In this document: in pieces, positions 732 through 62,191 of the stretch
Position numbering within the stretch: position 1 is the first letter of the stretch
How the letters are laid out: each line of letters starts with the position of its first letter
Source: Macrocystis pyrifera
Taxonomy: Eukaryota > Sar > Phaeophyceae > Laminariales > Laminariaceae
Reading direction: 5' to 3'
Assembly: GCA_031763025.1 (NCBI GenBank)
Contig: JASSKH010000021.1
Coordinates: forward strand, 1,612,001-1,676,000
DNA length: 64,000 nt
Made by a program: the position numbers and the translations under genes
The notes under the pieces: model-generated
Database searches by the model: none
What the model saw: only the letters and a program-made list of their open reading frames with translations
What the model was told of the DNA's origin: nothing

Positions 732-955
732 GGGGGGGGGGGGGAGTGCACTTGTGCCACGCACGGTTGTAGTCGTAATATGACCATAGAGCCTTGCTTT
801 CCTACAATTCCGAGACGGACCACATCGTGTTTTTACCGACCACGCAGGCCTAGCTTGCATCAAGCACGAAGCGCCGTGAGGTGTTGGGCGAGTCTCATAC
901 CGGTAAAGGGTGAGCTTCATCCTGATAAGAACCGCTTGTAAAGGTGGACTTCGGC
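732..955 (-). mobile_element. SINE-C copy
   Basis: A G run of 13 (the poly(C) tail on the minus strand) precedes the SINE-C body: GCACGGTTGTAGTCGTAATA, CACAGACCAG-like core, GTGAGGTGTTGGGCGAGTC, GAACCGCTTGT. Old, with many substitutions, 5'-truncated. Confidence 0.8.
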
Positions 956-984
956 ACCTTGTGCGTACACACTTGCATATAGGT

Positions 985-2960: not shown

Positions 2961-3209
2961 TGACGGAAGATAACTTTGTTGGCTTAAAGGCCTGGAGGGT
3001 AATGGACAGTGCGTGGAGAGGGGAGTGTCCGGTGGATTTTCGCTGACGAGATTGGGTGCTTCGAGCCCCAAAGTACGCATCGTTTTCGTTCGAAGGAAGC
3101 TACCTCTCGGGCTACTTCACCCACGTAACTAAACCCTTTTATTATCATATCATTAATCAGAACCCGCACGTTGGATCTCCGAATATATGTTTAAACACCA
3201 GTTTTTTAT

Positions 3210-3345
3210 TTGGATGATCACTTTCACTTTCCAGCTCAACTCTTAAGAGCTTTCACCCTCAGCGATCTTTTGGACAAGCCATGGTCACAGGCGTCGTCCC
3301 TTCTCCCTTCCGGTACGTGCCTTCATTTTTATCGCGCATACAAGG
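3210..3345 (-). mobile_element. SINE-T fragment
   Basis: ATCACTTTCACTTTCCAGCT, GACAAGCCATGGTCACAG, ACGTGCCTTCATTTTTATCG: the 3' half of the SINE-T described at 31,805. Confidence 0.75.
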
Positions 3346-4575: not shown

Positions 4576-4810
4576 AGTAAATAGATGAGCTAAAAACCCA
4601 ATACGAAGGACAATGTCATGTACCAGTATTCTACGGACGTACGTATGAATATGATATGATATGACATGTGATACACGAGGTAGTGCCCGGTATGGTACGC
4701 ACAATAAATGAAACGCTCGGGCCGGTTCGGGGCGTCAAGCGTAACGAAATTCGCCGACGCAGCCACCACGCTACCATACTAAAGACAAAGTAGTTGATCA
4801 TAGATTGTTA

Positions 4811-4915
4811 TTACGGGAGTCCATAGTTAATAGGACCTATGTTATATTTAAAAACCTATATATTTACCTATTTTTACTAACAATATTTGGTCCTATTTAC
4901 TATGGCACCCCGTAA
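4811..4915. mobile_element. MITE-1 copy
   Basis: TTACGGGAGTCCATAGTTAA to ATGGCACCCCGTAA, TA on both sides. Confidence 0.87.
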
Positions 4916-5724
4916 TAATAAAGTAGATATGAGTAGCCGCACGAAATCACCTGATGACGTAACCCATGGCGATTTTTGTGTCTCGCTAACCACGTGCTAT
5001 ATGGTATGGTACGCACGAGCTGCTGTACTGCTGTGTGTGCGTGCGCTCCTGAATGCTGTGCAGCGTGCAAAGCAGGTTGATTGTCAATCGCGATATAGTG
5101 ATCGTATCTAGTACCGCTGTATGCAGCAGGAGTTGAAACGGACACCCCGAACCCCGAATCCCCGGCGATGTTTCTTCCTTCTGTTGTTGCGTTTTAGCCT
5201 TCCTAGCGCCCTTCGGATGCCAGGCGGATCCCACGGCGAGGGCGCTCGATCGACCAGCCAAACCAACCGACGGCTTCTAGTGGGTCCAGCCGTGACTACC
5301 CTGCGCGTTCACTGGGTTTTTCTCGTGCTGTTGCGTCCTGTATCCATCCTGCAGCTCGAGGTGTTCAAAAATGATCTGGCCTCTTTATGTAGCAGGGTAT
5401 CCCCGAGAAAACAACCCGAGGGCCAAATGTCGTCATTTTTCATGAGCGGGTGGCAATGGCAACCGCCTGTGAACAGCAGGGCTTGGCGGGGTGGTGGGGG
5501 GCACTTCAGACCCACGACGCTCGTTGTGCACTGCTGCTCTTCGGATTGCAGATAACAAACGTGCAATGAGTCCCCCCCCGGCCGTACTAACTGTTGTACC
5601 CTGGAGTGTGGACTGTTTCACGAGAAGGAACGGCTCAAGGGGGGGGCGGGAATCCCATCAACTGGGCACGATCCAACACCCAAATCGTCATCCAATGCGC
5701 TTGAAAAAAAACTTGTTTCCGTAC

Positions 5725-12990: not shown

Positions 12991-13035
12991 GGTGCATTTC
13001 TTACGTACGCCCCCCCCCCCCCCCCCCCCCCTCTC

Positions 13036-13117
13036 TATGGTAATACACGACTACGGCCATGCTTGAGATCGAGTACATCTCTCCTATCGAGTACCCCCCC
13101 CCCCCCCCCCCCCCCCG
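13036..13117 (+). mobile_element. Very short SINE-C 3' end
   Basis: ACTACGGCCATGCTTGAGAT, a repeated GAGTACATCTCTCCTATCGAGTA, then about 24 C. It begins directly after another C run at 13,011-13,032, so it looks inserted into a tail. Confidence 0.75.
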
Positions 13118-13133
13118 CTCTCCTCCCCTCTTT

Positions 13134-13300
13134 CATGCGACTCGCCCAACACCTCACGTTTCGCTTCGCGCTTGGTGCAAGCAATGTCTGCCTGGTCGGT
13201 GAAAACCCGACGCGCTCCGTCCCGGCGTTGTAGGGATGCGAGGGTCTATGGTCATACGACTACGGCCATGCATGACAATGAGTACACCCCCCCCCCCCGC
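13134..13300 (+). mobile_element. SINE-C copy with C tail
   Basis: CATGCGACTCGCCCAACACC, GCTTGGTGCAAGCAATGTCT, GGTCATACGACTACGGCCAT, GACAATGAGTA, C run. It lies between two other poly(C)-family pieces in the same orientation. Confidence 0.85.
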
Positions 13301-13309
13301 CCCGCCTTT

Positions 13310-13850
13310 GGGGGAAGGAATAGGAATGAAAACGTATTTGCATGGCCCAATGGACTTCGCGAAAACGCTGAAACTGCGCTTTCGTGTAGGTGACCTGGAC
13401 CTGCCAGAAAGAAGAAAGAGGTATACCAGTAGCTGGGAGGAGGAAGTAGATGCACAGATGTGCCCGGGTGGCAAAGCAATAGAGAGTAGAACTCACATAC
13501 AAGGAGAATGTGAAATATAAAAGGAGGAATGGGATGTGTTAGAAGAGGAGATGAGGGAAATATACGAATGTGACATGGAGGAGTTTGATACACTGAATAT
13601 CAGCGAGAAAACGATCGCTATCCTAGGAGATAGATGGTGGCCACAGGCGGCCAGACAGGAAGGGGATAAGATTAGCAAAAAGTTTCTATGTACTATATGG
13701 AAACAACGTAATGAGCGCCCAATTGTTGGAGGTGTCTCTATTAGGAGTAGGAACGGTGCTCCGTCTCGAAAGGGATGCGTGGTCAATGGTCAAATGACTA
13801 CGGCAAGCAACAAATGAGTACGCCCCCTCCCCCCCCCGCCCTCTCCCAAC
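13310..13850 (+). mobile_element. LINE-C 3' fragment with poly(C) tail
   Basis: About 500 bp of the LINE-C end in plus orientation: CPGGKAIESRTHIQGEC (a Cys/His knuckle near the C terminus), [54 protein letters not shown] and ASNK, followed by TGAGTACGCCCC and C-rich sequence. One in-frame stop lies after the knuckle. Confidence 0.85.
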
Positions 13851-14089
13851 GGTCTGCCAGGATTAACTTCCAACTTTTTTGTAGTACACGAGGACGGGTC
13901 GGTTTGTACAGCTCCTGCGGGGGGAGTGTTGGCTGGGGGCATGCGCGAGCTGGTCATATCTGCGTGCGAACGAGAGGACATCCCGCTCCGAACCGAACCC
14001 CCGGACTTGGCGGAAGTTGGACACTGGAAAGAGGCTTTCTTAACTGGTGAGGGACCCGGGGATTTGGGGGCGCAGGAAGGGGGAGGGGG

Positions 14090-14630
14090 AGGTGTACTAT
14101 TTATCATGCATGGCCGTAGCCGTATGACCATAGACCCTCGCGTCCCTACAATGCCGGGATGGAGCACGCCGGGTTGTCACCGACCTGGCAGACATTGGTT
14201 ACACCAAGCACGAAACTCCGTGAGGTGTTGGACGAATCCCATGCAGGACGAGCTGCATCCTACTAAGAACTGCTTGTGAGGCGGACTTGCAGTAGGTGAC
14301 GTCTTCGAATGAATGAATTTATTTGCATCCTGGTATGACCACTTCCAGAGCTATAGATAAAATGGATGTACTGTGGAACTGCCTCGTGAGTGCCTTACCA
14401 TATATACACTACGTGATACGACCATTCTCCTTGTTCGGAGTTTAGGTTCTCCACACCCGCACAAACGATCCAACTCGACCGCCAGCCCGTGGTGACCGCC
14501 AAACATGAAACAAAAAAATCAAACGGTACCCTGGTTGTCTAGCTCACGCAGTGAGAGGCGTGTCTTTTGCAGAGTCGTCGCCAGCCCTACGCCAACCCAA
14601 CCTATATATATATATAGTACCAAATATATA
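14090..14630 (-). mobile_element. SINE-C, near full length
   Basis: Colinear over about 530 bp with the copy at 47,322-47,880. Besides the common 3' part it keeps the 5' half: CCACTTCCAGAG, TGCCTCGTGAGTGCCT, CACTACGTGATACGACCAT, TCGACCGCCAGCC, TCTAGCTCACGCAGTGAGAG. The far end is a TATATA tract. No ORF of note and no poly(A). Confidence 0.82.
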
Positions 14631-14824
14631 ATCATCTAAGCTCGTTTTGGGCTGGTCGGTGTTTCTTTCTTCGTCTTTTTTGCGTTGTTCGTTGTTGCCC
14701 GGTGGCTACGCACGAGTAGTTGGCACGAGGAACGAACGCCTGTTGTGTTCTCCCTTTTCAGCTTGGGACACCCCCGGGAGTTCAATTCAACCACAATCCT
14801 GAAGGGGAACCTTGTATATATACG

Positions 14825-17050
14825 AAGGGGGGCGTACTCATTTGTTGCTTGCCTCACGCATCCCTTTCGAGACGGAACACCCGTTCCTACTCCTGTAGTA
14901 GAGACCCCCCCCAACATTTAGACGCTCATTCTGATGTTTGCATATTTTACATAAAAACGTTTTGCTAGTCTCACTCACCCCCTTCTTGTTTCGCTGCCTG
15001 TGGCCACCATCTATCTCCTAGGATAGCGATCGTTTTCTCGCCGCTATCTATTGCCCCAACCTCCTCCATGTCATATTCGTCCGTTTCCCTCATCTCTTTT
15101 CCTAGCACATCCCGTTCCTCTACACGAAAATCGCAGTTTCAGCGTTTTCGCGAAGTCCGTCGGGCCGTGAAAATACGTGTTCATACCTATCCCTTCGCTT
15201 AACCACCCGTATATCTCCGAGTGTTTCTCCGATTCCACCTTGTTTCTTAGCGCTAACCTTTTCCCTTCTTTTTTTTAGTTTCTTCTACTTCTGCCTTGTA
15301 CCTCCCAGATTTCTCTGCGGACATCATCTCTTCTTGGTTTCTTCCTATATCCTTCCATATTTTCCCAACTACGATATCTCACCTTATTCCAGTTCGCCCT
15401 TTTTGTTTGTTTCTCCCATACAGCTCTATCAATTCCCTGGTATGGCTGGCAACCTCTTTTTTGCATGTTTTTTGAACTTTATATTTGCCATTTCAACTTT
15501 CCCATGCCTCTGTTTGTCTTAATTGGGCACATTCCCAGTTCTGCTCTTAATACTGTATTACTCGACGTACTTGAGCATCTTAGTATTTTTTTTCGCTTTT
15601 TGTTATCTGTATTGTTTCCAACTGTTTTACAAACTTCGCAATCCCTTCCCATAAATCTCCTGCATATTCTAGCTTTGGTATTATTACATTCATCAGGATA
15701 CATCTCTTGATCCCAGTGTTCAGGTGCGAGTCTGTTAGGATCGCATCCATCTTGCCTACGTGTGCTTTACCCTTTCCTGCTACTCTTGCTATGTGTGTAC
15801 CCCAAGAGCGGTCTTTTGATATCTCTATGCCAAGGTACGTATACTGGTCTACGATGGATAATTAATCTTCTCCCCAATTCCAACTGAAGTTTACCGGGTT
15901 CCCCTTATCTTCGTCACATACAACTACTCCGTACTGCGCACTTCTTCACGTTCGCCGTCACCCTCCGATTCCTAGCGTGTTCTACTAGTACCACTTTCTA
16001 TTTAGTGCTGCAATCCTTCGGGTGTTTCTGACATCCCCGCAAAGTCATACGAAAATATCGATCCTGACACCGTATCTTCCCCCACCGTGACTCCCTGCTT
16101 TCCGGCGTCGACCGCTACTATCAGGTCTTTAATACATACCTTACATAGATCAGGTGATAACGTACATCCCTGTGCATCTCCTTGTAAAATTTCAACGTAC
16201 TCGATATTTCCCCGTTCACCATCACACCACTTCTCGCACGTTCCGTCATCTTTTTCATCATTTTCCACATATTTCCTCTGATCCCTGTTCCCACAACGTT
16301 TTCCACAGTCCAGCCCTCCATACTGCTGTGTCATAGGCCTTCTGTACATCTAGAAATAAACAGTACGTTGTTAGCCCCGCTTCTTCCCTACCTTGAATTA
16401 TCTCACCTATTGTGTACACATGGTTTACGCAGCTACGGTTTGGCCTAAACCCTGCTTGCCCTTCGCTTATTTTGTCTACTTCTTCCGTCCTTGTTGCCGT
16501 TCTATCGTTCAAAGTCTTACAAAATGTTTTGCGTACTGTGCTCAATGAAGCGTTATCCCTGTGTGGTTCCCCGGGTCAGCCTTATCTCCTTTCTTGAATA
16601 AGTTTACCACTACTCCTTCTCTCCACCTCCTAGGTGCGTGCTCGTTTTCCGTACCCAGTTATACAACATAGCCATCATGGTAACCGTTCCTTCTCCCCCG
16701 TACTTCATAAATTGATTCACTATTTGGTCTGCACCTATTGCCTTTGTATTTTTACGTTTAGCTACACACCTCTCTACTTTTTCCCTTGAGAACTCTCCCT
16801 GTAACCCTTCTGAAGCACTGTCTTCCCTCTCTGACCCATCTACTTTCGCGTTTCCTTCTCGAATTCTGCGTCGACCGTCTCGTTGGCTGTGGGCCTTCCT
16901 AGCTATACTAGTACTTCCCCTTCTCCCTTCGAACCACTAGCCGTTTTACCGTTCTGTGCTCTTAAGGTAGCTATTGCCGTGTCTACCTCTCCTACTTGTT
17001 CGCCTAGTATCCCTTTTGTCGTTACCCTCGTATGCTTCATCCCGCCCTCA
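14825..17050 (-). mobile_element. LINE-C: non-LTR retrotransposon, degraded, ends in poly(C)-family 3' tail
   Basis: On the minus strand the reverse transcriptase blocks run from about 16,860 to 16,000: KVERCVAKRKNTKAIGADQI, FMKYGGEGTVTMMAML, GQAGFRPNRSCVNHVYTIGE, YCLFLDVQKAYDTAVW and LQGDAQGCTLSPDLCK, then FSYDFAGMSETPEGL where the family expects F-A-D-D, so the catalytic second Asp pair is damaged. Several frame breaks split the ORF. The C-terminal part (about 15,100 to 14,830) ends in the same text as three other tails in this window: RDRWWP-like, [25 protein letters not shown], stop, then GAGTACGCCCCCC. The 5' end is unclear. Single-ORF layout and polymerase motifs make this a LINE; clade not assigned. 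Confidence 0.85.
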
Positions 17051-17231
17051 CAAGTCTCCATTCGTTTTATTCAAGGGGTGTTCCATGTGTTTTGTTTTGT
17101 GCTCACGTCGGGTTGGGGCACGTGCCCTGGTGGTGGCGGCCAGCAACGTGCTGTAAACCTTGTTCGTGCACCTATGATATGTTGTTTTTCCTCGTGTATG
17201 CATCAATGGTCCGCACCGCGGACTGACAGAT

Positions 17232-17817: not shown

Positions 17818-17968
17818 GTACCTCACGTTTCGCTTCCCGCTTGGTGCCTGCGATGTCTGCCTGGTCGGTGAAAACCCGACGTGCTCCGTCCCGGCATTAT
17901 CGGGATGGGAGGGTCTATGGTCTTACGACTACGGTCATGCATGATAATGAGTCCCCCCCCCCCCCCCC
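17818..17968 (+). mobile_element. SINE-C copy with C tail
   Basis: CCTCACGTTTCGCTTCCCGC to CATGCATGATAATGAGT and 14 C. 5'-truncated at the CTCACG position. Confidence 0.85.
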
Positions 17969-18507: not shown

Positions 18508-18792
18508 GGGGAGGGGGGGGGGGGGGGTGTACTCACTATCATGAATGGCCGTACTCGTATGAACATAGACTCTATTGCATCCCTGCAATGCCGGAGTGGA
18601 GCACGTCGGGATTTCACCGACCAGGCAGACATTGATTGCGCCAAGCGCGAAGCGAAGCGTGAGGTGTTGGGCGAGTCGCATGAACGGTGAGCTGCATCCT
18701 ACTATGAATCGCTTTTGAGGCTGATTTTCTTGCATACGGATGACAGCGTCAATGAATTGATTTATTGGCCGCTTCCAGAGACAGCAGTCCCA
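18508..18792 (-). mobile_element. SINE-C copy between two G runs
   Basis: G run, then TGTACTCACTATCATGAATG, TGCAATGCCGGAGTGGAGC, GAGGTGTTGGGCGAGTCGCA and ATTGATTTATTGGCCGC, ending at CAGTCCCAG where an 89-base G run begins. Confidence 0.85.

Positions 18793-18881
<89 letters not shown>
18793..18881. repeat. Poly(G) run of 89
   Basis: Uninterrupted G as written. It probably is the poly(C) tail of a neighbouring element on the minus strand (the following GTTATGTTATCACCCG is not SINE-C). The exact length is likely unreliable for sequencing reasons. Confidence 0.9.
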
Positions 18882-20530: not shown

Positions 20531-20774
20531 ACGCAGTACCAAATATCATACCATATCACCGGTACTTGCTCATTCGGACCTTAACCCCGGTCAGAAAGCA
20601 ATGAGCCCGAAGGTGGTACCCCTGCGAAGGGAGTGGCCTCTGCAACGAAAACAGTTGAGATTCCATCGATAGGGCATGCCTTGCTGGGTAGATCCTGGGT
20701 TGATGAACTCCATCAGACGTAGTATATTTGGCCAGAAAGTGCTATGTACGATTTTTGTGGTTCCGTTTGTTGTT

Positions 20775-20871
20775 GGTTTTTCTTCTTCCCATTTAGTTTC
20801 TTATTTGCCCTTCTTTCTTCTCTCTCTCTCTCCACCCTCCCTAGTCGTAACTCAGATCCGGGGTCACATAG

Positions 20872-20915
<44 letters not shown>
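20775..20915 (+). repeat. C2 copy with 44-base poly(C) tail
   Basis: A pyrimidine-rich stretch, TAGTCGTAACTCAGATCCGG, GGTCACATAG, then C44. Confidence 0.65.
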
Positions 20916-21940: not shown

Positions 21941-24900
21941 ATGTGTTCTCTGCGCAGGGGTCCTCTCTTGCCGGCTAGGAGGCAGCTCGATACCCCTCGT
22001 GGTGGTAACCTGTCTCATAGCCACTAGCGACCTCCTGGGGTCCACTCTTCGCTTGCGTTCACCACAAATCGCACCTTTACGGAACTGTTCTGACCTGCGG
22101 GCATGTTGGCTCCAACGTGCTGGTTGTAGTGCTGCTGATCCATGCTGGCTCCTTCGCTCGCTCTCGTTGATTGACAGGCCCGGTGTTGAGGACGTTAGGT
22201 GGGTCTCAGAGTATTTGGATTGCTCTTGGCCAGGGAAAAACTTGTGTGCACATCCGCGCTCCTTTCTGTCTGAGGTTTGACTTCCTGGAGGCGTGTTTCC
22301 CTGGGCGTTTCTCATCATCGTCCCCTTTTTGTTAGGTCGACTGACAGCTCGGCATGGAACCTGTCTTTGCTCCGCATGTCAGCCTCCCTGGCAATCCTCT
22401 TGAAGGCAACCCTCCTCGTTCGGCATCAATCCATTGTCTATCGGGCCTCTCGACGGCTACCTTAGCAATGCCCTGTTGCACCGAACCGCTGTAACATCCC
22501 CCCCAGCTTGGTGGCGCAAGCCAACAACGCGGCAAGACGGGCGGTGCGTACGCTAGAGCTTCGTATAGGGAAAACCTTGGTCCGTAAATACTGAGTTAAG
22601 TTACCAACCAGGGTTTTTTTATACCCCACTTTCTAACCGAAACTGACTATCTATTCCTGCTGTATAGAATGCACCGCGGCTCCTGTCACGACAACGGGGC
22701 CTTACCCTTTGGGCTAGTTCAACTTGTCTGCCTCAACTCTTCTCTTCGCTTTACCCCCTTCCTCATTTCCGAGACCGTCAGTTCCTCCCAGTCATTGTCC
22801 GGGAACCTGACGCGCCAGTAGGGCGAGCAAAAGTCATAAACCTGTCCTACTCGGTCCGTCTGCTTATCGTCTGCCGCGTGGGATCTGGTTACTGTCGTTC
22901 CTATCAGATATAGGGTTAACGCTTCGCTTCTACTGAGGAGCGTACGCTTCTTCGGGCGAGCGGTCGTCTGAGTTTTCTCCGCGTCGGGGGGGTTCAAGTT
23001 CCACAGGGCGTGAAAGGTGTCTAGCTGCAAAGGGGTAAAACTGTCTAGGGATTCTGTCTCCGTGACCCAGTCCGAGGAGACCCCGTCTAGGTATCTTCCC
23101 CGATATTCCCAACGGGCTGTCCCTGTTTTACTCACCACCTCCCTGCGGTCTATTAGAGTATACATCGGGGCCGCGGCGACCGAGTCTCCTCTGAGCCCCA
23201 GGTCAGCGCCCCAAGCTATTTGTGCGAATTCGTCCCCTATCGGGTGTCTCAAGTCTGATGAGCGCCTGTAGAAGGGTTTGAGCGATGCTACCGAGACTGT
23301 GCGGGATCGTTTTTCTTCCTCCCTCCATCTCTATGACAGCGCTAAGGCCCTTAAAACACGACCTTGGTCACGGTCCACGGACCTGTCCATTTTTCGTGTA
23401 CCAACTTCGGTCCCATACCTTGTCTGAAAAGCGAGCTGTCGCTCTCCCGTGCCAGGACCAGGTCTCCCTCCGCTACATTTGTACTTGGGGAGGACCGTGA
23501 TATTCTGGCATTGTGGCGCTGACGGGATGCTTCCTTATCTGCGTGGATCTTTCGCAGTGCCTCCGCTACCTCCCGCATGTTATGCCTGCGGTTCTCGATG
23601 AAGTTGCTGAAGCCGCCTGTGGCTTCTGTGTCATCCATCTGTGGGATCAGCATATCGAGGGTTGTGCGAGGGCTGCGACCGAACAGAAGCTGGAAGGGAG
23701 TCATGGCGGAGGGTAGTGACGGGTCTGGCGTAGTGCGTTTGATCCAACAAGCGGCGGCAACGTACTCGTCCCATCTCGTTGGCCAGGCCTTACACAGTTC
23801 GGATAGCACGTCTTGCATCCATGCTCCCGCTCTTTCCACTCCTCCCTGCCCCCTGGGATGATCTGCCGGTCCGAACTCTATTGGGACTTTTAACCATCGA
23901 CATAGGTGTCCCACTACTGCCGCTGTGAATTCCCCCCCACCGTCTGCGCGAATAGATGAGGGCACTCCAAATGTCAAGCAAAGGTCTAAGAGCAAACGGG
24001 CTACTCCGTGTGCTTCTTTTGACGGTAGTGGGTAAGCGAAGGGGAACCTAGATGCTCTGTCTACAACGAGCAGTAGGTACTCGTTCCCTGCGTCCGACGT
24101 GTTGGGGAATTTCTGTAGGTCTACCTCTAGCACTTCCCATGGCTCCAGGAATCTGGCGGGAAGCATCGCCACCTGTTGACTACGTGACCTCTTCCTGCGT
24201 CTACACCCACATGATAGAACATACTCTCGCGCATCTCTACACATGCCTGGCCAGTGAAACCGGTCCCTTAGCAAGGAGAGGGTTCTTGCGATTCCGGGGT
24301 GACCGTGTTGGCAGTGCACTAAGGCGAGCATGTCCGCTACAAGGCAACTCGGTAAGGCTAATACAGCTGTTCGCTTTACCAACGCTCCCCTCTGTTCGAA
24401 CTCAAGCCACAGGAGACTCTGGTCGTCTAGAAGGTACCTGTTGATATCCGTATCTGTCAACTCGTTCTGCCCGGCGACTTCTCCTTGACTACATAGTGCT
24501 CGCCTGACCTTGCTCAAGAATGGGTCCGCTGCCTGGCTCCTGACCAGGTGGGGCACGTCTTGCAGCGCCTGGAGGGCACGCTCTATCGCCGTTGTCGCCA
24601 ATGGTTCCTTTTGGCGTGCCCCCCCCTCCCCCCCCGCTGGGAGACTGCACTCGACGGTGTCAGGCGCCAGAAGGTTGCCCTTCGTCGGTGGTAGCGGGTC
24701 TTTCGGGACCTGTAAGGAGCCGGGCTCTGCCGCCTGAACGGCCGGTTCGCCTCCTGTCAGTGATCGGGCGTTTGACGACGTACGCGCGGTGCTCGCAGGG
24801 CGAGGGGGGCGGGCGGGGGCTTCCGGAAACGAAGTTAGACGCACGGATGGAGTACGAGCGCGGCTGGATCGCCGTACTATCAGCCCGGAGCTGTCTGTAT

Positions 24901-26262
24901 GTATCGCGGCAACCCGGTCATGGAACGGCAAGGTGGCAAACTGTGCGTCCGAGGTTAGGTCGACGGGTTCGTCGGGTGGTTCTTCGAGCACGGCTACGGT
25001 CCGCGGAATGCTAGCAACGATTGCACTAAGCGCGGATGGCAACCGTTTACTAGTTGACCTTGCTCTACGGACAACATGCCGTTCCCTGCTACCACCCGGG
25101 TCTACCAGTCCCTCTTCGAGTGATTCTAGGTCATTCAGCAGATGTCCGTCGAGGACCGGTCCCCTGGGCCCTACGTAATCGGTAGGTTTGCTCGATGATG
25201 CGTCGTCCGGGAATGAGTCGTCGATCGAGGCGCTTGTTGCCCCCGGGCGTAGCAAGCGGGATAGAGCGTCAGGAAGCTTGTGTGACGTTCCTGCCCTCCA
25301 CTTCATGACTATGTCGAATTCCGTTAGCCGGAGCGCCCATCTGTAAAGCTTGGGGTCCAGGTCCCGGCTACGGAATAGCCACAGCAACGCGGAGCAGTCT
25401 GTGACCAAAGTGAACCTTCTACCCGCCAAAAAAGGTCGAAAGTGGACAACTGCCTATAAAACCGCCATGCATTCCCTTGCGGTAGCTCCACGACGCGCGT
25501 CCGTACGAGACCACCGATGGCTGGCGTATGCGACCACACATTCCTTCCCATCATGCACTTGCGTTAGCGCTGCACCTGCCCCTGTCTCACTGGCGTCTGT
25601 ATGTAACGTGAATGGGCTGTCCCAGGAAGGGAAAATTAGAATAGGAAATGATGTGAGGGCCGCCTTCAGCGCCAAGAACGCATTCTGTTGTTGTTCTGCC
25701 CATGGGATACGGAGGCGTCGCGCGCGTTTGGTCGTAAAGGCTTTGTCTCGAAGGATATCTGTGAGCGGCGCAGCTAGAATACTGTACCGCTCTACGAACT
25801 GCCGCAAGTAGCCCGTCATACCTAGAAATGCTCTGAGTTCCTCCACCGTTGACGGCGGAGGTAGCTCAGCTACGGCCGCCACTTTCGACTCCGACGGTCT
25901 AACCCCCTGTCTGTCCACTACCATCCCTACAAATTCCAGACTCGGGCAACACCATCTTGATTTAGCAAAATTCACTGACAGTCCAGCGGACTGCAGGCGG
26001 TTGAGGACTGCGTCGATCAGGATGAGGTGTTGGTCAAAGTCCTGGCTGTAAATAAGGATATCGTCCAAGTAATTTTCCACTCCTTTGCCCCTTAGCCCGC
26101 TAAGCAGCTCCGCTACCATACTTGCAAACGCTGGCGGCAGGATTTTGAGTCCAAACCCACATCTCATGTATTCCCAAAGTTGACCGTATGCGTCGCGAAA
26201 AGCGGTTTTGTGCCGATCTTCTTCTGCAATGGGTAGCTGGAAAAATCCGCGGTGGTATGTTG
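21940..26262 (-). mobile_element. Ty3/gypsy LTR retrotransposon fossil, broken
   Basis: Parts seen on the minus strand, in order: reverse transcriptase (ENYLDDILIYSQ, LRAFLGMTGYLRQF), RNase H (PFTLHTDASETGAGAALTQ), connection, integrase (GHPGIARTLSLL, EVDLQKFPN, GVPSSIRADGGGEF), and a C-terminal module ending YWRVRFPDNDWEEL, similar to chromo/tudor-type tails of some gypsy integrases. A purine-rich tract near 22,500 is followed by TGTTACAGCGG, which looks like the start of the 3' LTR (about 22,497 to 21,940). The order RT-RH-IN fixes the Ty3/gypsy family. It is incomplete and broken by a few breaks, moderately old. It lies inside repeat R3, whose two halves flank it. Confidence 0.85.
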
Positions 26263-26335
26263 TTGTTGTAATTAATCGTCACTTTTCGCCGTCATTTTCC
26301 CCTCTCGAGTCCCAAGAGCGAGTCGTTTTTCACAG
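26263..26335 (+). repeat. R3 repeat, right part
   Basis: AATTAATCGTCACTTTTCGC, CGTCATTTTCCCCTCTCGAG, the block that ends R3 in the intact copies. Confidence 0.65.
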
Positions 26336-31000: not shown

Positions 31001-34000
31001 ATGTATTGCTTTTTTTGTTGTCTTTTAGTTTCTTATTTTCTGTTGGCTTGGGGTGTTGTGTTTTCGTACCCGGTACGTTGGCATTTGACTTGCCTTACCT
31101 CTTAATTTTCGATTTTTTTCATTTTCATTTTTTATCTGTTTCGCAGGCTGTGACCACATAATCAGTATCTCTCTAGGATAAGGAATCAGGACGGACGCTG
31201 GATGTACTGATCTAGTTGGGTAGGAAGAACGGTTTAATGTGAAGACAAACACACACATCATATATCTTGAACAAAATCGATTGCTGAGAGCGCATAGCGT
31301 GGGTAGGCGCTACTAGACGCGAGTCGACGAGGGAAGAAAGTACTGAACCCCTCACGCGACAAACGAAGGCACGCACCATAATGGGACGGGGGGAGGAGCG
31401 CCTATCAAACTATCATACTGTGTGACCCCCGGATCTCAGTTGCGACTAGGAAGGAGAGAGGAAACAAGGGCCAGGACAATAAATGGGATGGAAAAAAAAA
31501 AATGTGTGTCTCCGGTCGAAGCAAGCTGTGACTATCTCGCCTGTCAAAAACAAGACACAAAATACTTGTACATTAATTACCAACACAGCGATACAGCAAT
31601 ACGATATACAAGCGGCGGAACCGTCGCCGCTTCGATCGTATGAGATTGATATAGTTTGGTGAGACTGAATAGCTTTGGTTGGGATTGGATGGGAGTTGGA
31701 TGGTTGTGTCAATAAACAGAATGCAGCACTCCGGCCGAAGCAGTTTTTGACCATCCTGCCTGCAAAAAAAAAAAACACAACTCAACAGCACAGCACGGCA
31801 ATCGATTTTTTTTTTTTTCATCACTTTTACTTTCCAGCCCACTCGTAGGAGGTTTTATCCTCGACGATTTTCTAGACAAGCCGTGGTCACAGGTGTCGTC
31901 CCTTCCCCCCCGGTACGTGCCTTCATTTTTATCGTGCATAGGGTTCAGCATTCCCACTGCTCGTCGATTTTCATCGAATGTATCTAACTCACGCTCTCGC
32001 GCTTTCTGCTTGTCAATTTTTATGCAAGAAAAAGTCCCTACGAGCATGCACTCGGTGAGATTTGAACCCACGAAATTGATCATTGATCTTGATAGGCACG
32101 CGGACCACCTACCAAGCCACCGGGCATACAAGCGGCGGAACCGTTGCCGGTTCGACTATGTTGTTTTAGTAAATTGTATGGGATTGGGTGGGAATGGGTG
32201 GGGGTTCTGTGGGTTGGGCAATACAAATACTCCGGCGTCGTCGGCCGTATGTTGCGACTAGTTCGCTTGTCAAAAACAAAGCACAACACGCCAATATGAT
32301 ATACCAGGTACCAGGTATACGCCGCCCAACCGTCGCTGACTCGATTGAATGGGATCACGTGGCAGAGAAGGAAGAGCAGCCTTAGGCCAATCGGATCACG
32401 ATAGGAGACTGAGGGGTGGGGATTATATCAATCCCACCTGTCTGTCCCCTGTTTTCTCATATTTTCTCACATAATATATGCCTCCCAAGCAATACGAATA
32501 CGTTCAAAATACCAAATACCAGGTACTACAGTAGGCACTTACCGGCCTTCCAACGCAATACCAAAACACCCCCCCTCTCCCGCCCCCTCCCTGCTTCCCT
32601 TTCCCCCCCGATGTCTGCCTGCTCGGCTAAAACTTGACGTGCTCCGTCTCGGTATTAGCGAGGGTCTATTGTCATATGACTACCTACGGCCATGCATGAT
32701 AATGAGTACCCCTCCCCCCCTCCCCTCGAAAATGGGCGTAAGACTACGGCCATGCACGATAATGAGTACACCCCCCCCCTCCCCGCGAAAGGGATGCGTG
32801 GTCAATGGTCAAACGACATTAAGACAAGCAACAAAAGAGTACGCGTCCCGCCCCCCCCCTGCCCCTCCCCCAAACGCCTTCCCACCCCTTCGCCCCCGGT
32901 TCCCCTTCCCAAACGCCCCCCCCACATGCAAAAAAATTCCCGCCTCGCGAGCGGTTCTTAGTGGATGCAGCTCACCCGCCATCGACTCGCTCAACACAAT
33001 ACGGGGCTTCGCGCTTGGTGCAAGCAATGTCTGCCTGGTCGGTGAAAACCCGACGTGCTCCGTCCCGGCGTTGTAGGGATGCGAGGGTCTATGGTCATAC
33101 GACTACGGCCATGCATGATAATGAGTGCACCCCTCCCCCCTAGAAAATAGTAAAAAAACGGTCGTTATCCCAGGAGATAGATGGTGGTCATACAAGGCAA
33201 AACAAGAAGGGGATAAGGTCGTAGACACTTTTTTCGGTAATACATGGAACAAACGAAATGAGCGCCCAAATGTTGGAGGTGTCTCTATTAGGAGTAGGAA
33301 CGGTGCTCCGTCTCGAAAGGGATGCGCGGTCAATGGTCAAATGACTAAGGCAAGCAGCAAAAGAGTACGCGCCTACACCCCCTCCCCCTCATCCATATGC
33401 AAGTCCCTCTCACAAGCGGTTCTTAGTAGGATGCAAGTCACCCTTCATGCGACTCGCCGAACACCTCACGGCGCTTCGTGCTAGGTGCAAGCAACGTCTG
33501 CCTGGTCGGTGAAAACCCGACATGCTCTGTCCCGGCATTGTAGGGATGCGAGGGTCTATGGTCATACGACTACGGCCATGCATGAGATCGAGTACAACCC
33601 CTCCCCCCCCCGCTACACCCCCCGCTCCCCCTACTAGGCAGGCGGCACTTACGGCATGATGATAAAATCCTTGTCACCCTCCTCGCTCCAATCGTCTCTA
33701 TTGAAGTGCACGATTTCAGGGGCAAGTCCTGTGGCTGTCCGCTCGTACATCTGTTGAGGCACGGCAATCGTCACGCGTACCACACACATAGAAACGGTTC
33801 ACACGCCGAACAGATCATCTACAGATCATTCCCACTTCATGATCTAGATCCCTGATTCGTATGGTCTGTATGGTCTAGCTCGTGATGCCGGGGGGGAGCC
33901 GCGTAGTCTGCATAGTCTAGGACATGTTTTCTGGGTTGGATCTGTACTATACAGATAGATAGATCCTGCACAACATCTCAGAACGGCAGGTTAGGATCTA

Positions 34001-36745
34001 TCTGATCTATCTGATCTATCTGATGTATCCGTAGATGATCTATCCGATCTATACGTAGACGATCTATCCGATTTATCCGTAGATTATCTATCTGATCTAT
34101 ACGTAGATAATCTATCTCATCTATCTGTAGATTATCTATCTTATCTATCTGTAGATGATCTATATTATCTGTCTGTAGATAATATATCTGATATATTTGT
34201 AAATGATCTACAGTATCTGTGGATGATCTATCTCATCTATCTGATCTACCTGTAGATACCTATCTGATCTATATCTGTAGATGATCTATCTGATCTGTCT
34301 GTAGACGATCTATCTGATCCATCTGTAGGTGACCTATCTTATCTATCCGAGGTGTGAAACGTTTGATTCCCAGTCCGGAATATAAATATATGGCACTCGG
34401 TTGACCGCGTGAAAATCGTCGGAAGGGTTACACGTCATGCACCCAATATAGGCAATGAGGCATAATTATCGGTGTATTCGTTTCAGACCCAGGCCGTGGG
34501 GTTGCGCAGCGGGTTATGCTCTTTGTGACCCGAGATAGCGACCGAAAGAATGGTTGATAGCTTTCGTGATATCAACCATTTCTAGGAGCAGCGTGCGTGC
34601 CCAGCATGATGGGTAGGATCATGCCGCCCCCGTGCCGTCCGACTCCTTGCATTCAACCCTTTCTTTCAAGTCGGACGCCGGTCGGCATCGTCCCCCACTC
34701 ACACATGCAATGACCGTTGCTGTAAATCGTCGACCTGTATCGTCAGTTCTCTCCTTTGATGTCCCACGAAGGTTAAGCGTAAAATTTGTTCTACAAAAAA
34801 GCCAGTTGCTGGATGGACCCTTTTAAGAATGCATGCAGTCCCCTTTTGGCACCAGACTAACATGGTTGAGATATAGAGCTGCTCAAGCGAGGAGTAGCCC
34901 TAGGAAAATTCGCAGAATATTGCTGGTGCACCCCTACCCAAGAATGCCTATTTTGCATAGGAACACCCCCACACGGTATGTACATCTGCCGAGCAGCACC
35001 GCGGCAGTCATCACGCACGCGCACCGCATACGTCAAGTACTACTCGCTATACCATTTACACTTGTTTCCGAGTCCATCAATACAGACAAAAAACGTGTAC
35101 CACCTCCGTGTGGAAAAGGAAAGGTTTTGTTTTGCGAGTACAAGATCGGGGCGGGGTGTGATGCCATCATTATCATGCATGGCCGTAGTCGTATGACCAT
35201 AGACCCTCGCATCCCTACAATGCCGGGATGGAGAACATCGGGTTTTCACCCACCAGGCAAACATCGCTAGCAACGAGCGCGAAGCGAAACGTGAGATATT
35301 CGACGAGTCGTACGAAGGGTGAGCTGTATGCTACCAAGAAGCGCTTGTGAGGCGGACTTTCTCGCCTATCGATGACAGCGTCGAAATAATTGGGGGAGAG
35401 GACGGAAGGGTGGGGGGGCGGGAGGGGGGGTTACTACAATAAAAAAAAAGTTGAAAAAAAAGCGTGGTCGTCTCGATTCGTACAGAAATCCCAACGATCC
35501 GATTATGTTTTCTTTTTTTCGGGCTCCGTTTTCTCTTTTCGTTCGTGCTCCCCTGCCCCCGGGCTGCCATTCAGACACGACCAACAGGGTGCCTTCCGGG
35601 GGGAAAAAAGCATCGTCGAGATGTTTCTATCGAGGTATCTCCCGACGCGTGCTATGATAAGAGGTACAGCACAAATTGGCCAAAAAAAAAACTAAAATGA
35701 CGGGGCTCCTTCACAAAAAAAATCGTCGGAATGTCGTTCTCTTTTTGCAAGTTTTTTTTTTTTTTTTTTTTGACACTTAACGGGGTGCACTAAAAAAAAA
35801 AAAAACGTTTTTACTCACTATATAATAGAATAGAGCACCTCTCTACCTTCAGCGTCTGCACTTTCCTCCCCATTGTCGAGAAAAATCAGCGCAGCAGCTC
35901 GTCGGAGGGGGGGGGGTGTGCTTTCAGAACGGCAGTCCCTTTTCAGGGACAAACCAGTCGAATCTCAAGCAGTTTTGTCCCTAAAAACCGGACTGCAGTC
36001 CTGGAAGGGGTCAAGCGTTACCTGGTACCAGTATGTCCCAGAATATAAAGAGCGGATGTATATTAGCATATTAGCAAAATAGTCTAAACGTTCCTCACGG
36101 CAGCAGCGTCAAAAATCAATCACTTGGTTTCGGACGTGGGTCAAGCCGCGGACACTATATAATAATACTGGCTCCCTCACCTGGTAGCAAGTCTCCATGA
36201 GTCGCCACGCGAGCTGCAGGTGGCCGTGGTCGCTTCGAGCCTTTCCAGCCGCTCCCTGCTGGTAACCCAACGCAAGGGTTCCAGGAAGGAAGCACAGCAA
36301 GTGGTCCATCTGGAGCAGAGGACAAAAACAAAAGGGAGCAAAAACGCATCGCGGAGGAACATCCACCCCGCCCCGCCGCCCGCCCCCCCGCCCCGCAGAG
36401 ATAGATAGGCACTTGCTTAGCCAGGTTGTTGTTGTTGTGTTGTTGTTGTTGTTGATGGTAACGTTGTCGTAAGAAGAAAAAAAAAAGAGTGAACATTAAA
36501 AAAAACTAACGGATGCTTCCCAAACGAAGTAACCAGACCAGACACCGCTGTCGGCAAGCACTACTTAAATGAATCGCTTCGGTCCGTACATAAAACACAT
36601 CTAGGACATCGACCGGCTTCTGTGAGGGCTCCACCTTCCTTGACTGCTATCAAAGTAGGATTACGAGCTCGTAAAAAAGCCTCCACATCTGTCGTCATTC
36701 TTCGGGATTACTTCCTTAATGTAGATACATTACCAGGCATGCCTT

Positions 36746-36793
<48 letters not shown>

Positions 36794-39700
36794 CTCGTAG
36801 TGATCCAACTGTCTCGAAAGCTTTTGACGGTTGGATCAGGGGCGTGTCCCATCATTGCGAACTACGGTCTGCGGGCACGTCACAACGACAGCCGTCATGC
36901 TGCACAGCAGTGCAAGCTACGCCCACATCCACATCCACAACCACAACGGCCCACACCAGCTCGCATCATCCACACCCCAGCCTGCACCTAGACCCGTCGT
37001 CCGCCGGGCGCATTGAAGCGCTCTCGAACCCGCCGCCGAAGAATAAAAACAAAACACAAGCCGTCACAAAAAACGAAAATCGAACAGACTCGCGTATGAT
37101 AGATACGAGTAACGTACGCGACTGCAGTCTAGAGTCAGTATACCAGGTACCATCAATACGCACATCAGTGCTACTATTACTACTGTAGTACGGGGGTCCA
37201 TGGTTAACAGGACCTATGGTATACATAAAAACCTACTTCGAAGTATACATTTACCAATTTTAGTAACAATATTTGGTCCTGTTTACTATGGTCCCCCGTC
37301 ATACAGTGTACGCACGATGATACGAAGTACCAGGTACGAGCTCATTGGCACAGATACGACCGGATGGCATATCGGCCTCGCATCCTCCTCGCGTGGACTG
37401 CTGTTCTATCGTATCGACCCGAACACGGATCGAGCTCCGCTTCTGTTGTGTATTTTCTTTGAGATTTTTTTTAATTTTTTTTAATTTTTTGTCATTTTAT
37501 GAAAAAAAGTAAGACAACAGCCGTCGACATCAAGTCAACCACCTGAGAGTTTGCTTATTTAAAATAAAACAAAGACACTTTTCAATCCCGGCGGCAAATA
37601 GTAAGCAACTCCCGGCGGAATGTAATCCAGGGTCAACATGCAAACATAAGGAGAACATCTATATTACGGGGGACCATAGTAAATAGGACCAAATATTGTT
37701 ACTAAAAATAGGTAATATATAAGTTTTTATGTATACTATAGGTCCTATTAACTACGGACGCCCGTAATAATTAACCCGTGTGCAGAATTTATCAATTTCT
37801 TGATGGTGCTAGTGTTTTACTTTACCGTACGTGTACGTACCTATACTCACTTAAATTGACTACGTAAAAACGTCTACATTTACTGATGACGGGCGATATC
37901 ACAGGGTACGTTTTTTGGAACCTTTCGTCTGGCTCTCCTGTGTAGATGTGTGCAGTAGGGAAATCCTAAATTAGGCCGCAAGTGAAACCGTCACAAAAGT
38001 GAAAATCGAACAGACTGGCAATGATACATCCGAGTATACGAGTAGGTGACTACGGAGTATCAAGGTATATCATCAATCAGCACATCAGAGCTACTGCACG
38101 TACGATAACACGAACCACAAGCGTATTAGCACAGGTACGACCGAGAAGCACATCGGCCTCGCATCCACCTCACGTGGACCGCTGCTGTATCGAATCCGTC
38201 CGGATACGGAGCTTCGTGGCGCTTTCGGCCTGCCAACACTCCAGAGCTCTGTGTAGGGTGTACGGTACTTTTGTTATTCCCCTGCTCAACCTGACTCAAA
38301 ACCATGAGAAATTCTGAAATGAATACATACACCTCTCGGCAGCACAGTCCATTTTACGGCCTCGATTTGGCTACATCTTCGACCAATACGGGGCATGAGC
38401 GGAGGCGCAGGCGGGCATCAGCCCGCCGCGGCGAAGCCCGCTTGCACTATTAATAACACCTATTACGGGGGCTGTGGAGCCTTTGGTCGAGCGCTATTCC
38501 GGCGCACCTCCAAATGGCTTTAAATACGTTCGTATACCTTTTTTTGGCTTTTGATCTGTTTTTTTCAAGTATTTTACCGCTGCTGTAGGTCTTGCCGCCG
38601 CCCTTCCACATAGTAAATAGGACCTACGGTACACACAAAACCCTATATATTTCCCTATTTTTACTAACAAATATTTGGTCCTATTAACTATGGTCCTCCG
38701 TAATAGACGGCCCTTAAATCAATAGCCGCAGAAAACCAACCAAACGATCGTTCGCCGATGGCATGTTTCCGTTGAGCTCCCCTGCGTACCACCGCCCGAA
38801 ACCGGGACAAACTTTTGCGCTACCATTCGAGTACCGTGTATTTCTACCTCACAATCTACCGGAGTCCCCGGTGGGTTGGTAGGTGGTTCGCGTGCCTACT
38901 GAGATCAATTTCGTGGGTTCGAGTCTCACCGAGTGCATACCCGTAAGGACTTTTTTCTCGCGTAAAAATTGACTAGCGGAAGGCGCGCGTGGGCGTGAGT
39001 TATTAATAGCAACATCCGATGAAAAACGACGAGCAGTGGGAATGCTCAACCCTATGCGCGATAAAACTGAAGGCATGCTTACACGGGGGGGGGAGAAGGG
39101 ACGGCACCTGTGACCACGGCCCGTCCGGAAGATCGCCGAGGGTAAAAAAACCTCCTACGAGTTAAGCTGAAAACAAATATAATGATAAAAAATAATACAA
39201 AACAAAAAACTCCAGGTTTTTCAACAACTAACCATTGCCGAGAAGTTGTCTTCGTTGAGCTCCCGTAAGCAACACAGCCCGCACCGAGTACGACTTTTGT
39301 ACTACCAACAAAAAAAAACTATCAAACCGACTATTAATAACAACCAACTAACTCAAGGACTAACCAACCACTTCACCGACTAAAACCAACTATTCAACAA
39401 CCCTACCTTTGGCGAGAAGGTGCTTCCGTTGAGTTCCCCTACGTAGCACAGCCCTCCCGGGTACGATTTTTGCACAAGGCTGGACTCCACCCCCCTCATC
39501 GCTTCCTGATATCTCTTCAGGTACTTCGTGTCCCTGCCGGAACAAGAGAGTTAATGGGGAGGGGGGGGGAGGAATGGGGGGGGGGGGGGGGGGGGGTACT
39601 CATTTCCATGCATGGCCGTAGTCGAATCGAGGGGGGGGGGGGGGGGGGTGGGGGGGGGAGAAGGGCATGGGGGAGGGTAGGAGAAGAGGGGAGAGCCTCA

Positions 39701-39963: not shown

Positions 39964-42900
39964 GCAACACAAAAAGCAGCGACAACTTCTACCGCCCCTC
40001 TTCAAAGCAACGCACCTTACGCAGCCCGGTTGCCTACACATTTAACAACACTTTCGACGCTCTTCCCTGCTAGCCCGCCACCCCCTCCTTCTCAACCCTA
40101 TTCCCTCCCAACCCTGCCCCTCGGTTCTTAGGAGCACGCGGCTCACCCTTTACGCGACTCGCCGAATACCTCACGCTTCGCTTCGCGCTTGGTGCTAGCG
40201 ATGTCTGCCCGGTCGCTGAAAACCCGACGTGCTCCGTCCCGGCATTGTAGGGATGGCGAGGGTATATGGTCATACGGCTACGGCCATGCATGATATCGAG
40301 TGCCCCTCCCCCCGCCTCCAACTCCACCCCATCCCCTCGCCCCCAACCCTCCCCTTCCTTCCGCCCCCGGAACAGCGCCCCGTCTCGAAAGGGATGCGTG
40401 GTCAAGGGTCAATTAACCTCAGCCTAGCAAACAAATGAGTACCCCCCCCCCCCCCCCCCCCCCCCGCCCCCCCACCCCCTCTACGCTCCCGCTCACTTAC
40501 GTCTTGCCAGAGAAGAGCCATTGCTTGAGCAGGTACTCGTAGTACGAGTCTCCCCTCGCCCCGAGCGTAACCAGCGCCGACCCCCGGCCCACCGACCCCC
40601 CAGACTCTCCAAACAGACCCTTTTCTGGGTCGATGAAAACTGGAGCGAGGCCCTATTCAACGTCGTTCGGGGTTAAGACAGACAGGGGATAAATTATTGT
40701 CGCGCGCGGAATTACATCAGCGATAAGCAGTGCTGTGGGCTGTGAGTTGTTTTTGCTCCACCGTATAAGGTTTTATAGTATCTTTTTTCCCATCCTATGT
40801 ATTGTCCGTTTTGCCCTATTTTGACACTTGGTCCAGCTTCCTCCCTTTTAGTCACCCATCATCCCACATATCAACACCTCGGACATATCATGTACAGATC
40901 ACGTACATATCATGTACATATCGTGTACATATCATGTACCTGGTACATATCGTGTACATATCATGCACCTGATACATATCATGTACATATCATGTACCTG
41001 GTACATATCGTGTACATATCATGCACCTGATACATATCATGTACATATCATGTACCTGGTACATATCATGTACATATCATGTACATATCATGTACCTGGT
41101 ACATATCATATACCTGGTACATATCATGTACATATCATGTACATATCATGTACCTGGTACATATCATATACCTGGTACATATCATATACCTGGTACATAT
41201 CATGTACATATCATGTACGTATCATGTACATATCATGTACATATCATATACCTGGTACATATCGTGTACCTGGTACATATCATATACCTGGTACATATCA
41301 TGTACCTGGTACATATCGTGTACATATCGTGTACATATCGTGTACATATCGTGTACATATCGTGTACATATCGTGTACATATCGTGTACATATCGTGTAC
41401 ATATCGTGTACATATCGTGTACATATCGTGTACATATCGTGTACATATCGTGTACATATCGTGTACATATCGTGTACATATCGTGTACATATCGTGTACA
41501 TATCGTGTACATATCGTGTACATATCGTGTACATATCGTGTACATATCGTGTACATATCATGTACATATCGTGTACATATCATGTACATATCATGTACAT
41601 ATCATGTACATATCATGCACAGATCATGCACAGATCATGTACATATCATGCACAGATCATGTACAGATCATGTACATATTATATACAGATCATGCACAGA
41701 TCATGTACAGATCATATACAGATCATGTCAGATAATCTACAAATCATCTATAGACCATCTACAGATCATTCCCACTTCATGATTTAGGCTTTTCAAGGCA
41801 GATATATCATATATTCCCGTCCTTGCATGATCTAGCTAATGTTGCCGGATGGGAACCGTATAATCTGCATGATCTAGCACATGTTTCGTGTATGGGATCT
41901 GTACTAGGCAGATCCTGCACAACCTCTCACAACGGAAGGTGAGGAACTAGATGGTGTACTGTAGATGGATAGATAGATAGATCATGATCTGTCTGATCTG
42001 TCGGAGGGGTGCATATTTTCCATCCCATTTATAGCATTTTTTTCCCCCGTGTACCTCTCCACCCCCCCCCTCCCTTCGTCCCGGCACTGTAGTACATTAG
42101 TACCTGCTTTTTGCCCTCGTTCTTGAGAGCCCAGTCCAGCCGGTTGCGAGCCCTCTCGATCGCACCCGAAGCGCGCTGGGCGATATCGTTGAAGAAAGGG
42201 TCTCCCGTTACCTTGGACAGGTAGCTGCGAAAGCAAAGCAAAGCGAAAAAAAAGCAACGGGAGGAGCAAGTTAGAAATACAGCACCACTCTGTCCCGAAA
42301 TATAAGAACCATGTGTATCTTAAAAATAAATATAAATGGTCATCATTTTTCGGGACATAGGGTACCATCGCGGGTTCTAATTACTACCTGTCCCTGGTAT
42401 GGTAATATTACGGGGGACCATAGTAAATAGGACCTACGGTACACACAAAAAAAATATATATATTTTCCTATTTTTACTAACAATATCTGGTCCTATTTAC
42501 TATGGACCCCCGTAATAGTGGGTACCCCTCAATAGCACTCTGGCCGTAAATATAAGCATCGTTCATACACTAATATGAAGACCCAACCGTCCTCATATTT
42601 ACGCCCAGAGCGACGGCGGCATAAAACTGACACTACTTTGACCCGAAATATAGGGACCGTTAGAATATAATTATTCAACCCAAAAGGTGATATATGTTGG
42701 TTCAGAGTGGTACCTGGTACCTGGTACGCGACATGCATTTTCAAACGTGGGAAGTGCGGTAGGCTCAAGCCTTCTAGGACCCTCAGCAGAGTCCCGCCAC
42801 GTATTTCGAATATGCAAGTGTGGTTGGTGGGCTTAAGCCTTTAGGACTGTTAGGAATGCAGTAGGATCCCGTTTTGGGTACAAATCACTCAGATTAGATG

Positions 42901-47323: not shown

Positions 47324-47357
<34 letters not shown>

Positions 47358-60868: not shown

Positions 60869-62140
60869 CTTATTTTTCGGATGCCATCCGACGATACACA
60901 GCGTGAGCTTCAGCGTTGATCACTCATAAGCATTCCCCGAAAGAAGAAGAAAACTCACAAAGGGAAAATCATAACTAAAAGTAAACATATTGACGTACAG
61001 TAGGCTATTGGACTGCAATAGCCTGTTGGCCTATAGTAGCTTCAACGTTGATCACCCAGAAACATTCCCCAAAGGAAGATGAATACCCAGGGAAACCAAA
61101 ACAAAAAGTAAACCTATTGACGTACAGTAGGATATTGGACTGCAATAGCCTATTGGATTACAGTAGACTATTGGACTGCGATATCCTATTGGATTACAGT
61201 AGATTCATCGTTAATCACTCAGAAACATTTCCTGAAGGAAGACGAATACCAAGGGAAACCAAAACAAAAGAGAATGTATCGTTCAGATTCCCCGTGCAAG
61301 ATGAAAAATATGTTGGAACGCAGGCCGACGGCACAGTTAAGGGCGCTGCACCCAAAGCGACAAAAAGTACAGGGATTAAACCCGCGTTGAATGTCCACTC
61401 GTCAGTCTTGAGAGTCTGTGTTCTCCGGTCGTCGTGAAGAAAACTCTAAACGCGCCCTTCTACGGTGAAAAAAAGGGCCAACGTAAGCAAGCGCTGCATG
61501 TGAAAACGGTGAGAGGGGAAAAACTGAAAAAAAAAAAAAACAGCGGGCATAACGTACGTCGCAATGCCGATACTTGCAAAATGGTTGGTTCGGGATGCAA
61601 AATGCTTGGTACAAGATGAAAATGGTTGATACGGGATGTTGGCATCATGCGTTGGGGTTAGAGATAGGGTTGGAGCTGGGTTAGGGTTGGAGTTGGGGCT
61701 GGTGGACTTGATTGAGTCACGGTGCCAGTTTTCGATTTGATCCACCTGCCTGGGTTCCTCTTGGCTCGAGGCTAAGCAAGGGCCACCACCGCCACCGCTC
61801 GTTTATACCTGCCAGAAAATGACGGTTACGACTTGCAGAAGACTTCACACACCTTCGCAGGCATTCTGAAAGGTTACTGGCTTGCAGGGTATGAGCTACC
61901 GGGGAGGGGAGTGTTCATGTCGCGCATGTAGCCGTAGTCGTAGGACTATAGACCTCGCATGCCTGCAATTCCGGGACGGACCACGCCGAGTTTTCACCGG
62001 CCAGGCAGACATTGCTTGCACCAAGAGCGAAGCGAAACGTGAGGTGTTCGGCGAGTCGCATGAAGGATGAGCTACATCCTACCAAGAATCGCTTTTGAGG
62101 CGGATGTTCTCGAGTATGGATGACAGCGTCGGATGGGCCA

Positions 62141-62191
<51 letters not shown>

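Follow-up and report, generated by a model that had tools for sequence, protein, structure and literature searches.

Two of the closest described systems pair a LINE with a shorter element. In Ectocarpus, a very abundant non-autonomous element of about 600 bp, RTEX-N1, has its 3' end in common with the autonomous RTE-X LINEs RTEX-1 and RTEX-2; its 5' part is given in the excerpt as being of undetermined origin, and the authors left its status as a SINE open (PMC12477816). For the Bov-B LINE and the Sauria SINE, which belong to the RTE clade, the first base of the target duplication has been linked to the tail repeat, and the excerpt calls the role of simple repeats at LINE and SINE 3' ends unsettled (PMC13295347). 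Among the plant and green-algal LINE families listed in one paper, the tails are (A)n, (TTG)n, (TTGATG)n, (CATA)n, (CA)n, (CAA)n, (TAA)n, (ATT)n and (CTATTT)n, and those of green-algal RTEX elements (CA)n, (CAA)n, (CCAT)n, (ACAATG)n and (CTTGTAA)n; (C)n is absent from the tail list in the excerpted text (PMC3747384). Among the titles and abstract openings listed in searches of open-licence PMC papers, none dealt with a LINE or SINE that has poly(C) as its tail or C as its target.

Here we describe a probable LINE/SINE pair in a 64-kb stretch of Macrocystis pyrifera DNA, hereafter the window, whose copies commonly have C runs on both sides.

A LINE and a short element with a common 3' end

Profile searches of the window identified 19 copies of the short element and five of the LINE. 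The short-element profile returned 21 rows at E up to 0.1, made up of the 19 short-element copies and two LINE ends. With the LINE-tail profile and a limit of E 1 there were 13, six for the five LINE copies and seven for short-element ends. The initial annotation had counted some 18 SINE copies with a common end and a C run, and its observation is confirmed: most copies of the two families finish in ATGAGTAC-like text plus C. In some short copies the 3' end has decayed, for example at 35163, 61909 and 746. A complete short element measures about 530 nt, longer than a typical SINE, and the element is known mostly from its 3' part, the remaining copies being 5'-truncated and beginning at scattered points. 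The full length and the frequent truncation had gone unnoticed earlier, as had the 5' C runs and the chains described below. Two copies are full length or nearly so: 47884-47357 (within 47324-47892, minus strand), which lies between runs of C8 and C33, and 14632-14094 (within 14093-14632, minus strand), which has no flanking C run of 6. In both, and in copies at L003 and L005, two of the loci outside the window, the 5' start lies near TATATA-GGTTGGG/ATTGGG text; one copy in L007 starts a few bases past this common point.

Positions 13,310, 32,783, 33,150 and 40,370 had been annotated as LINE 3' ends. The four LINE fragments are indeed present, but these positions are their 5' boundaries, and the 3' ends lie at about 13,826, 32,844, 33,370 and 40,442. 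The fifth copy, a degraded, 5'-truncated LINE with a reverse transcriptase domain (14827-17074, minus strand, 5' boundary set by hand), keeps the same end at about 14,827, as had been claimed, finishing in AAATGAGTACG C6; a candidate target duplication, CCCCTT, accompanies it. The fragment at 13314-13826 reads in one frame with a single internal stop and runs to CVVNGQMTTASNK, closing with ASNK and then the TGA stop. This TGA falls within AAATGAGTACG+C (AAATGAGTAC), 5 nt before the C run. The two copies whose 3' ends lie at 32,844 and 33,370 carry AAAAGAGTAC instead, the 'near-stop' of the initial annotation, and in 40369-40441 the letters read TGAGTA ahead of C24.

Homology between the LINE and the short element covers the last 75 nt or so (about 70-76 nt up to GAGTAC) and is detected in both directions: the short-element profile picks up two LINE ends, 13756-13824 with E 5.8e-7 and 33303-33351 with E 6e-5, and the LINE-tail profile matches short-element ends with a best E of 2.5e-6. 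The initial annotation had paired the two by a shared end with C in place of A; the shared end and the C stand, but the match reaches far beyond the GAGTAC on which that pairing was based. Because the TGA sits inside the shared end in 13314-13826, this end is LINE coding sequence and the element has practically no 3' UTR, like moth RTE elements (PMC2887409). A 3' end common to a LINE and a SINE is the usual sign of a SINE mobilized by LINE machinery, and the sequences suggest such an arrangement here.

Hairpins recur by eye at the shared end. A common RNA fold there was not significant, with 17 z-scores against shuffles ranging from -1.94 to +1.55 and the two LINE ends lowest, and the candidate fold, being no better than shuffles, was dropped. 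In a subfamily the 3' end is doubled as GAGTAC-ATCTCTCCTATCGAGTAC (13077-13093, 44460-44478 and 58902-58920 in the window, and also in L003), and a different end doubling occurs at 62341-62325 on the minus strand; slippage at the 3' end, or re-initiation there, may have produced the doubled ends. Elsewhere in the genome (537,376,219 bases, 223 contigs), one 301-nt query gave 4760 candidates in a loose first look, with 40 scored, and by this loose count copies seem to be many.

C runs flank copies on both sides

We defined a C run as at least six C within 25 nt of a copy end on the sense strand, and set the boundaries of the 24 copies by hand. A C run lies 5' of 17 of the 24 copies and 3' of 17, on both sides of 13 and on at least one side of 21, whereas G runs are found in 0 of 24 on either side. 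As background, a run of this kind lies upstream of 1.3% of the positions that are outside elements and of 2.0% of positions overall. Using profile boundaries and slightly wider windows, the count is 18 of 25 on each side, one LINE copy being counted as two pieces. Three control repeat families showed a C run in 0 of 44 rows; as one of them is palindromic and counted on each strand, these rows stand for about 29 separate places. At seven loci elsewhere in the genome, one on each of seven further contigs, which are the best matches of a query containing a C run and a C tail, 12 of 16 copies have a C run on each side and none has a G run. This count omits 3 of 19 copies too close to a locus edge; L004 and L007 aligned from query base 1, into the C run, so that their first copies may be biased, and matches at the tail end may be as well. 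Among the four 5' misses are an internal LINE piece in L004 and, in L003, the second half of a copy that is split, along with a full-length copy of L003 whose C14 lies at a greater distance and a degenerate match on the minus strand of L007.

A 5'-truncated short element at 17820-17968 (plus strand) has C9 shortly upstream and a C16 tail, another at 44437-44746 (minus) has C20 and C22 on its sides and the doubled GAGTAC end, and a 34-nt 3' remnant of the short element at 39561-39658 (minus) lies between C9AC18 and C21. At 18513-18881 (minus), a short element has C89 at its 5' side and C15 at its 3' side. This 89-base run, at 18793-18881, is the longest in the window, and only 38 nt of the 219 nt upstream of it are matched elsewhere in the window (79%).

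Seven of the 24 copies have no 5' C run of 6. The longest 5' runs of 984-746, 14632-14094 and the LINE 17050-14832 are only 2, 3 and 1, beside 3' runs of 13, 5 and 5, so C can either be gained at sites that have none, or the 5' side of these copies has been lost or misplaced. Three copies have no C run of 6 at either end, namely 14632-14094, the LINE 17050-14832 and 35390-35163, the last belonging to a short-element feature (35155-35430, minus) that follows a C-rich stretch, with C runs of up to 5 within 25 nt.

The C run had been annotated as a 3' tail only, a reading that is not supported in this form: C runs are equally common at both ends, in the window and at the other loci alike, which the initial annotation had itself named as an outcome that would speak against it. 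We read C as both target and tail. An unlikely alternative is an ordinary poly(C) tail at the 3' end, generated by template slippage or templated by the RNA, with insertion not directed to C tracts; the 5' C runs would then be no more than tails left by previous copies, which attract new ones or happen to lie beside them. The short element at 732-984 (minus), copy 984-746, is an exception in keeping with this alternative, with C13 behind it and no C run ahead, and slippage has been proposed for a moth RTE with short simple-repeat 3' ends, in the excerpt concerned (PMC2887409). Yet a 5' C run is present in 9 of the 13 copies that have no recognized family member within 250 nt upstream, including runs of 89, 22, 20 and 18, although older, unrecognizable members are possible there, and one 5' run belongs to a different repeat altogether, as described below.

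Counted by hand over both strands of the window, 16 of 27 C runs of at least 10 adjoin a copy on its sense strand. The other 11 adjoin no recognized copy; examples such as C44 at 20872-20915, C24 at 2960-2937 and C20 at 12180-12161 may be empty targets or the tails of other families.

Chains of truncated copies

Truncated copies are also chained head to tail in one orientation through C runs. Neighboring pairs within 130 nt in the window number 10 on the same strand and 0 on opposite strands, where 0.58 and 0.64 are expected, and none of 20,000 simulated placements reached 10 same-strand pairs. The chain at 13010-13837 (plus strand) runs from C22 through a short fragment with the doubled GAGTAC end (13032-13077), C23, a short element (13129-13285), C12 and the LINE 13314-13826 to C9. 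In the largest chain, at 32563-33623 (plus), six 5'-truncated copies from both families follow one another in the order short, short, LINE, short, LINE, short, all in one orientation with C tracts between them. A third, at 40122-40473 (plus), consists of a short element, a C-rich stretch, a LINE 3' end and C24, and a fourth, at 61901-62480 (minus), of three short elements, with C10 ahead of the first, C47 between the second and third, and CCCCGGT flanking the third. Chains occur in L005 and L006 as well; L007 has one opposite-strand neighbor.

It is conceivable, though we think it improbable, that each chain arose in one event in which the enzyme jumped between RNA templates at the C end. The uniform strand of close neighbors in the window and the 5' truncation of the joined copies would fit such jumping, as would L006, where one pair of CCGATT flanks encloses a short element together with a LINE end. 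However, the CCCCGGT flanks around the third copy of the 62480-61901 chain suggest that the second copy and its flank were there earlier, and 5' C runs are found in unchained copies too. The idea that the elements mark old expanded C microsatellites, or that C runs were multiplied by local tandem duplication or in assembly, is very unlikely: it could draw on the long C runs that flank no recognized copy, but the joined copies are different fragments of different families without tandem units, and on each side sense-strand runs are of C in 17 of 24 copies and of G in 0 of 24, with the seven loci on other contigs concurring.

A likely empty site and candidate target duplications

The short element at 58899-59169 (minus strand; copy 59158-58920) is inserted within the C run of another repeat, T, whose copies lie at 3205-3340, 31808-31940, 39194-39053, 43733-43844 and 59275-59165. 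The insert-free copy at 31808-31940 reads GTCGTCCCTTC7GGTACGTGCCTTCATT across the corresponding place, and the 3' flank of the insert reads CGGTACTTGCCTTCAT. This copy of T is likely to represent the empty site, in this one case. In other copies of T this place holds C9 or an interrupted C stretch, and as only some of the five have a C run, the length of the site before insertion is uncertain. Repeat T holds a CT/C stretch, the likely target of this one insertion, and one of its copies lies within a 93-codon stretch free of stops.

At five insertions, in the window and in L006, L007 and L008, the C run plus three to seven further letters is repeated on both sides. The repeated flanks are CCTGGGA at 18513-18881, the CCCCGGT of the chain at 61901-62480, CCGATT in L006, CACACGTA in L007 and CCCGTCTC in L008. 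These target duplications are suggestive only, since assessment by three methods gave permutation p values from 0.24 (24 units) through 0.066 (12 units) and 0.018 (22 units) to 0.012 (17 of 25 units).

Other repeats in the window

The sequence at 20600-20871, before the C44 run, matches 31498-31418 (96 nt, 70%) and 4530-4504 (27 nt, 93%), and these two precede runs of C6 and C9. A third family with C tails mentioned in the initial annotation is perhaps this one. A palindromic repeat of about 110 bp is very dense, at 4809-4917 and about 18 more places, and no C run of 6 lies in the 25 nt to either side of it. Long open frames at 23351-26278 (minus) resemble, by eye, the pol of an LTR retrotransposon, with text like that of reverse transcriptase, RNase H and integrase, and 40912-41787 is a tandem repeat with long repetitive open frames (MYISCTYHV...).

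Family placement

The LINE carries a reverse transcriptase, detected as RVT_1 in one of five pieces scanned (E 5.1e-7, in the degraded copy) and in one of two pieces (E 1.1e-11, in L004). It is probably of the RTE/RTE-X kind, although RVT_1 by itself names no clade; in keeping with that kind, its 3' UTR is very short and closes with a simple repeat. Flanking of most copies by the same simple sequence (5' C runs in 17 of 24 and 12 of 16) is a feature of simple-repeat-targeting LINEs, and the tails are C rather than the poly(A) of Zepp-like elements. CCHC is a term in use for such a C-terminus. Neither an intact LINE nor an endonuclease region was seen among the copies, all of which are truncated within or after the reverse transcriptase, and a PDB search with one LINE piece gave 0 matches.

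For the head of the short element, a tRNA, 5S or 7SL origin was sought in the window with ARAGORN (0 hits) and Rfam (0 at the gathering score), a result that a strongly diverged head could escape; when one full-length copy was compared with Rfam at higher sensitivity, a snoRNA at E 3.4 was the sole match. A head derived from a known RNA was accordingly dropped as a candidate. Searches for relatives found 0 by 18-mer in viral contigs, 0 by 24-mer in genome contigs and 0 in phages. A 19-mer match, L001, was set aside as chance, with no profile match at E up to 10.

A proposed mechanism

We favor, as the probable explanation, a pair of RTE-like elements whose RNA ends in C and primes on C tracts, at their G strand; tail and target would then be one and the same, and insertions would make new sites. 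LINE-C is a LINE with almost no 3' UTR, and SINE-C would be its non-autonomous partner, bearing the last 75 nt or so of the LINE. The LINE enzyme, which we infer to be used by both, would take an RNA bearing the shared end and a few C and nick a C tract of the genome on its G strand. The primer made there would end in G and, pairing with the terminal C of the RNA, could start target-primed reverse transcription. The tract would be split or duplicated in the process, placing C on both sides and insertions in the C orientation. Each tail would then be a fresh C tract on which later copies could land, building up head-to-tail chains of 5'-truncated copies one insertion at a time. The shared end, the C on both flanks, the orientation, the chains and one likely empty site can be read from the sequence, whereas the nick, the pairing, the sharing of the enzyme and the order of insertion are inferred. 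The C of the tail might come from the RNA, from slippage or from the target. On the wider claim we are evenly divided, namely that a LINE/SINE pair with one homopolymer, C, as tail and target forms a self-propagating C-tract system with tail-to-target pairing in RTE-like elements.

The agreement of tail and flank in most copies, together with the many copies, leaves tail-primer pairing open to test. If the favored mechanism is true, many of the long C or G runs of this genome would be retroelement footprints, as the 16 of 27 runs that flank a copy in the window illustrate.

Comparison with known systems

There are parallels with mammalian L1. A comparable case, going by description rather than sequence, is RTEX-N1, which like our short element is an abundant short non-autonomous element with the 3' end of an RTE-X LINE, although no C tail, C target or chains are mentioned in the excerpt of that report (PMC12477816). 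Bov-B and Sauria likewise form a LINE/SINE pair with a shared 3' end and simple-repeat tails, but there, in the excerpted text, targets rarely resemble the 3' repeats, whereas here tracts of the tail base flank most copies on one or both sides (PMC13295347). Lepidopteran RTE elements have a single ORF, an extremely short simple-repeat 3' UTR and abundant 3' fragments; in the excerpt, however, the repeat is argued to have been absent from the site before insertion (PMC2887409). Nested insertion producing arrays of 5'-truncated 3' ends is known from Zepp and ZeppL of green algae, but these are described in the excerpts as L1-clade elements with poly(A) and one cluster per chromosome, in contrast to the C and the dispersed short chains here (PMC3446292, PMC8226300, PMC3747384). 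Togen, a (TG)n-targeting LINE, also has a simple repeat as its target, but it is NeSL-related and uses another repeat, with no C homopolymer target mentioned in the excerpt (PMC4640811). Thus the kind of system is known, and what looks new, within the open-licence papers searched, is a C tract that serves as tail and target at once.
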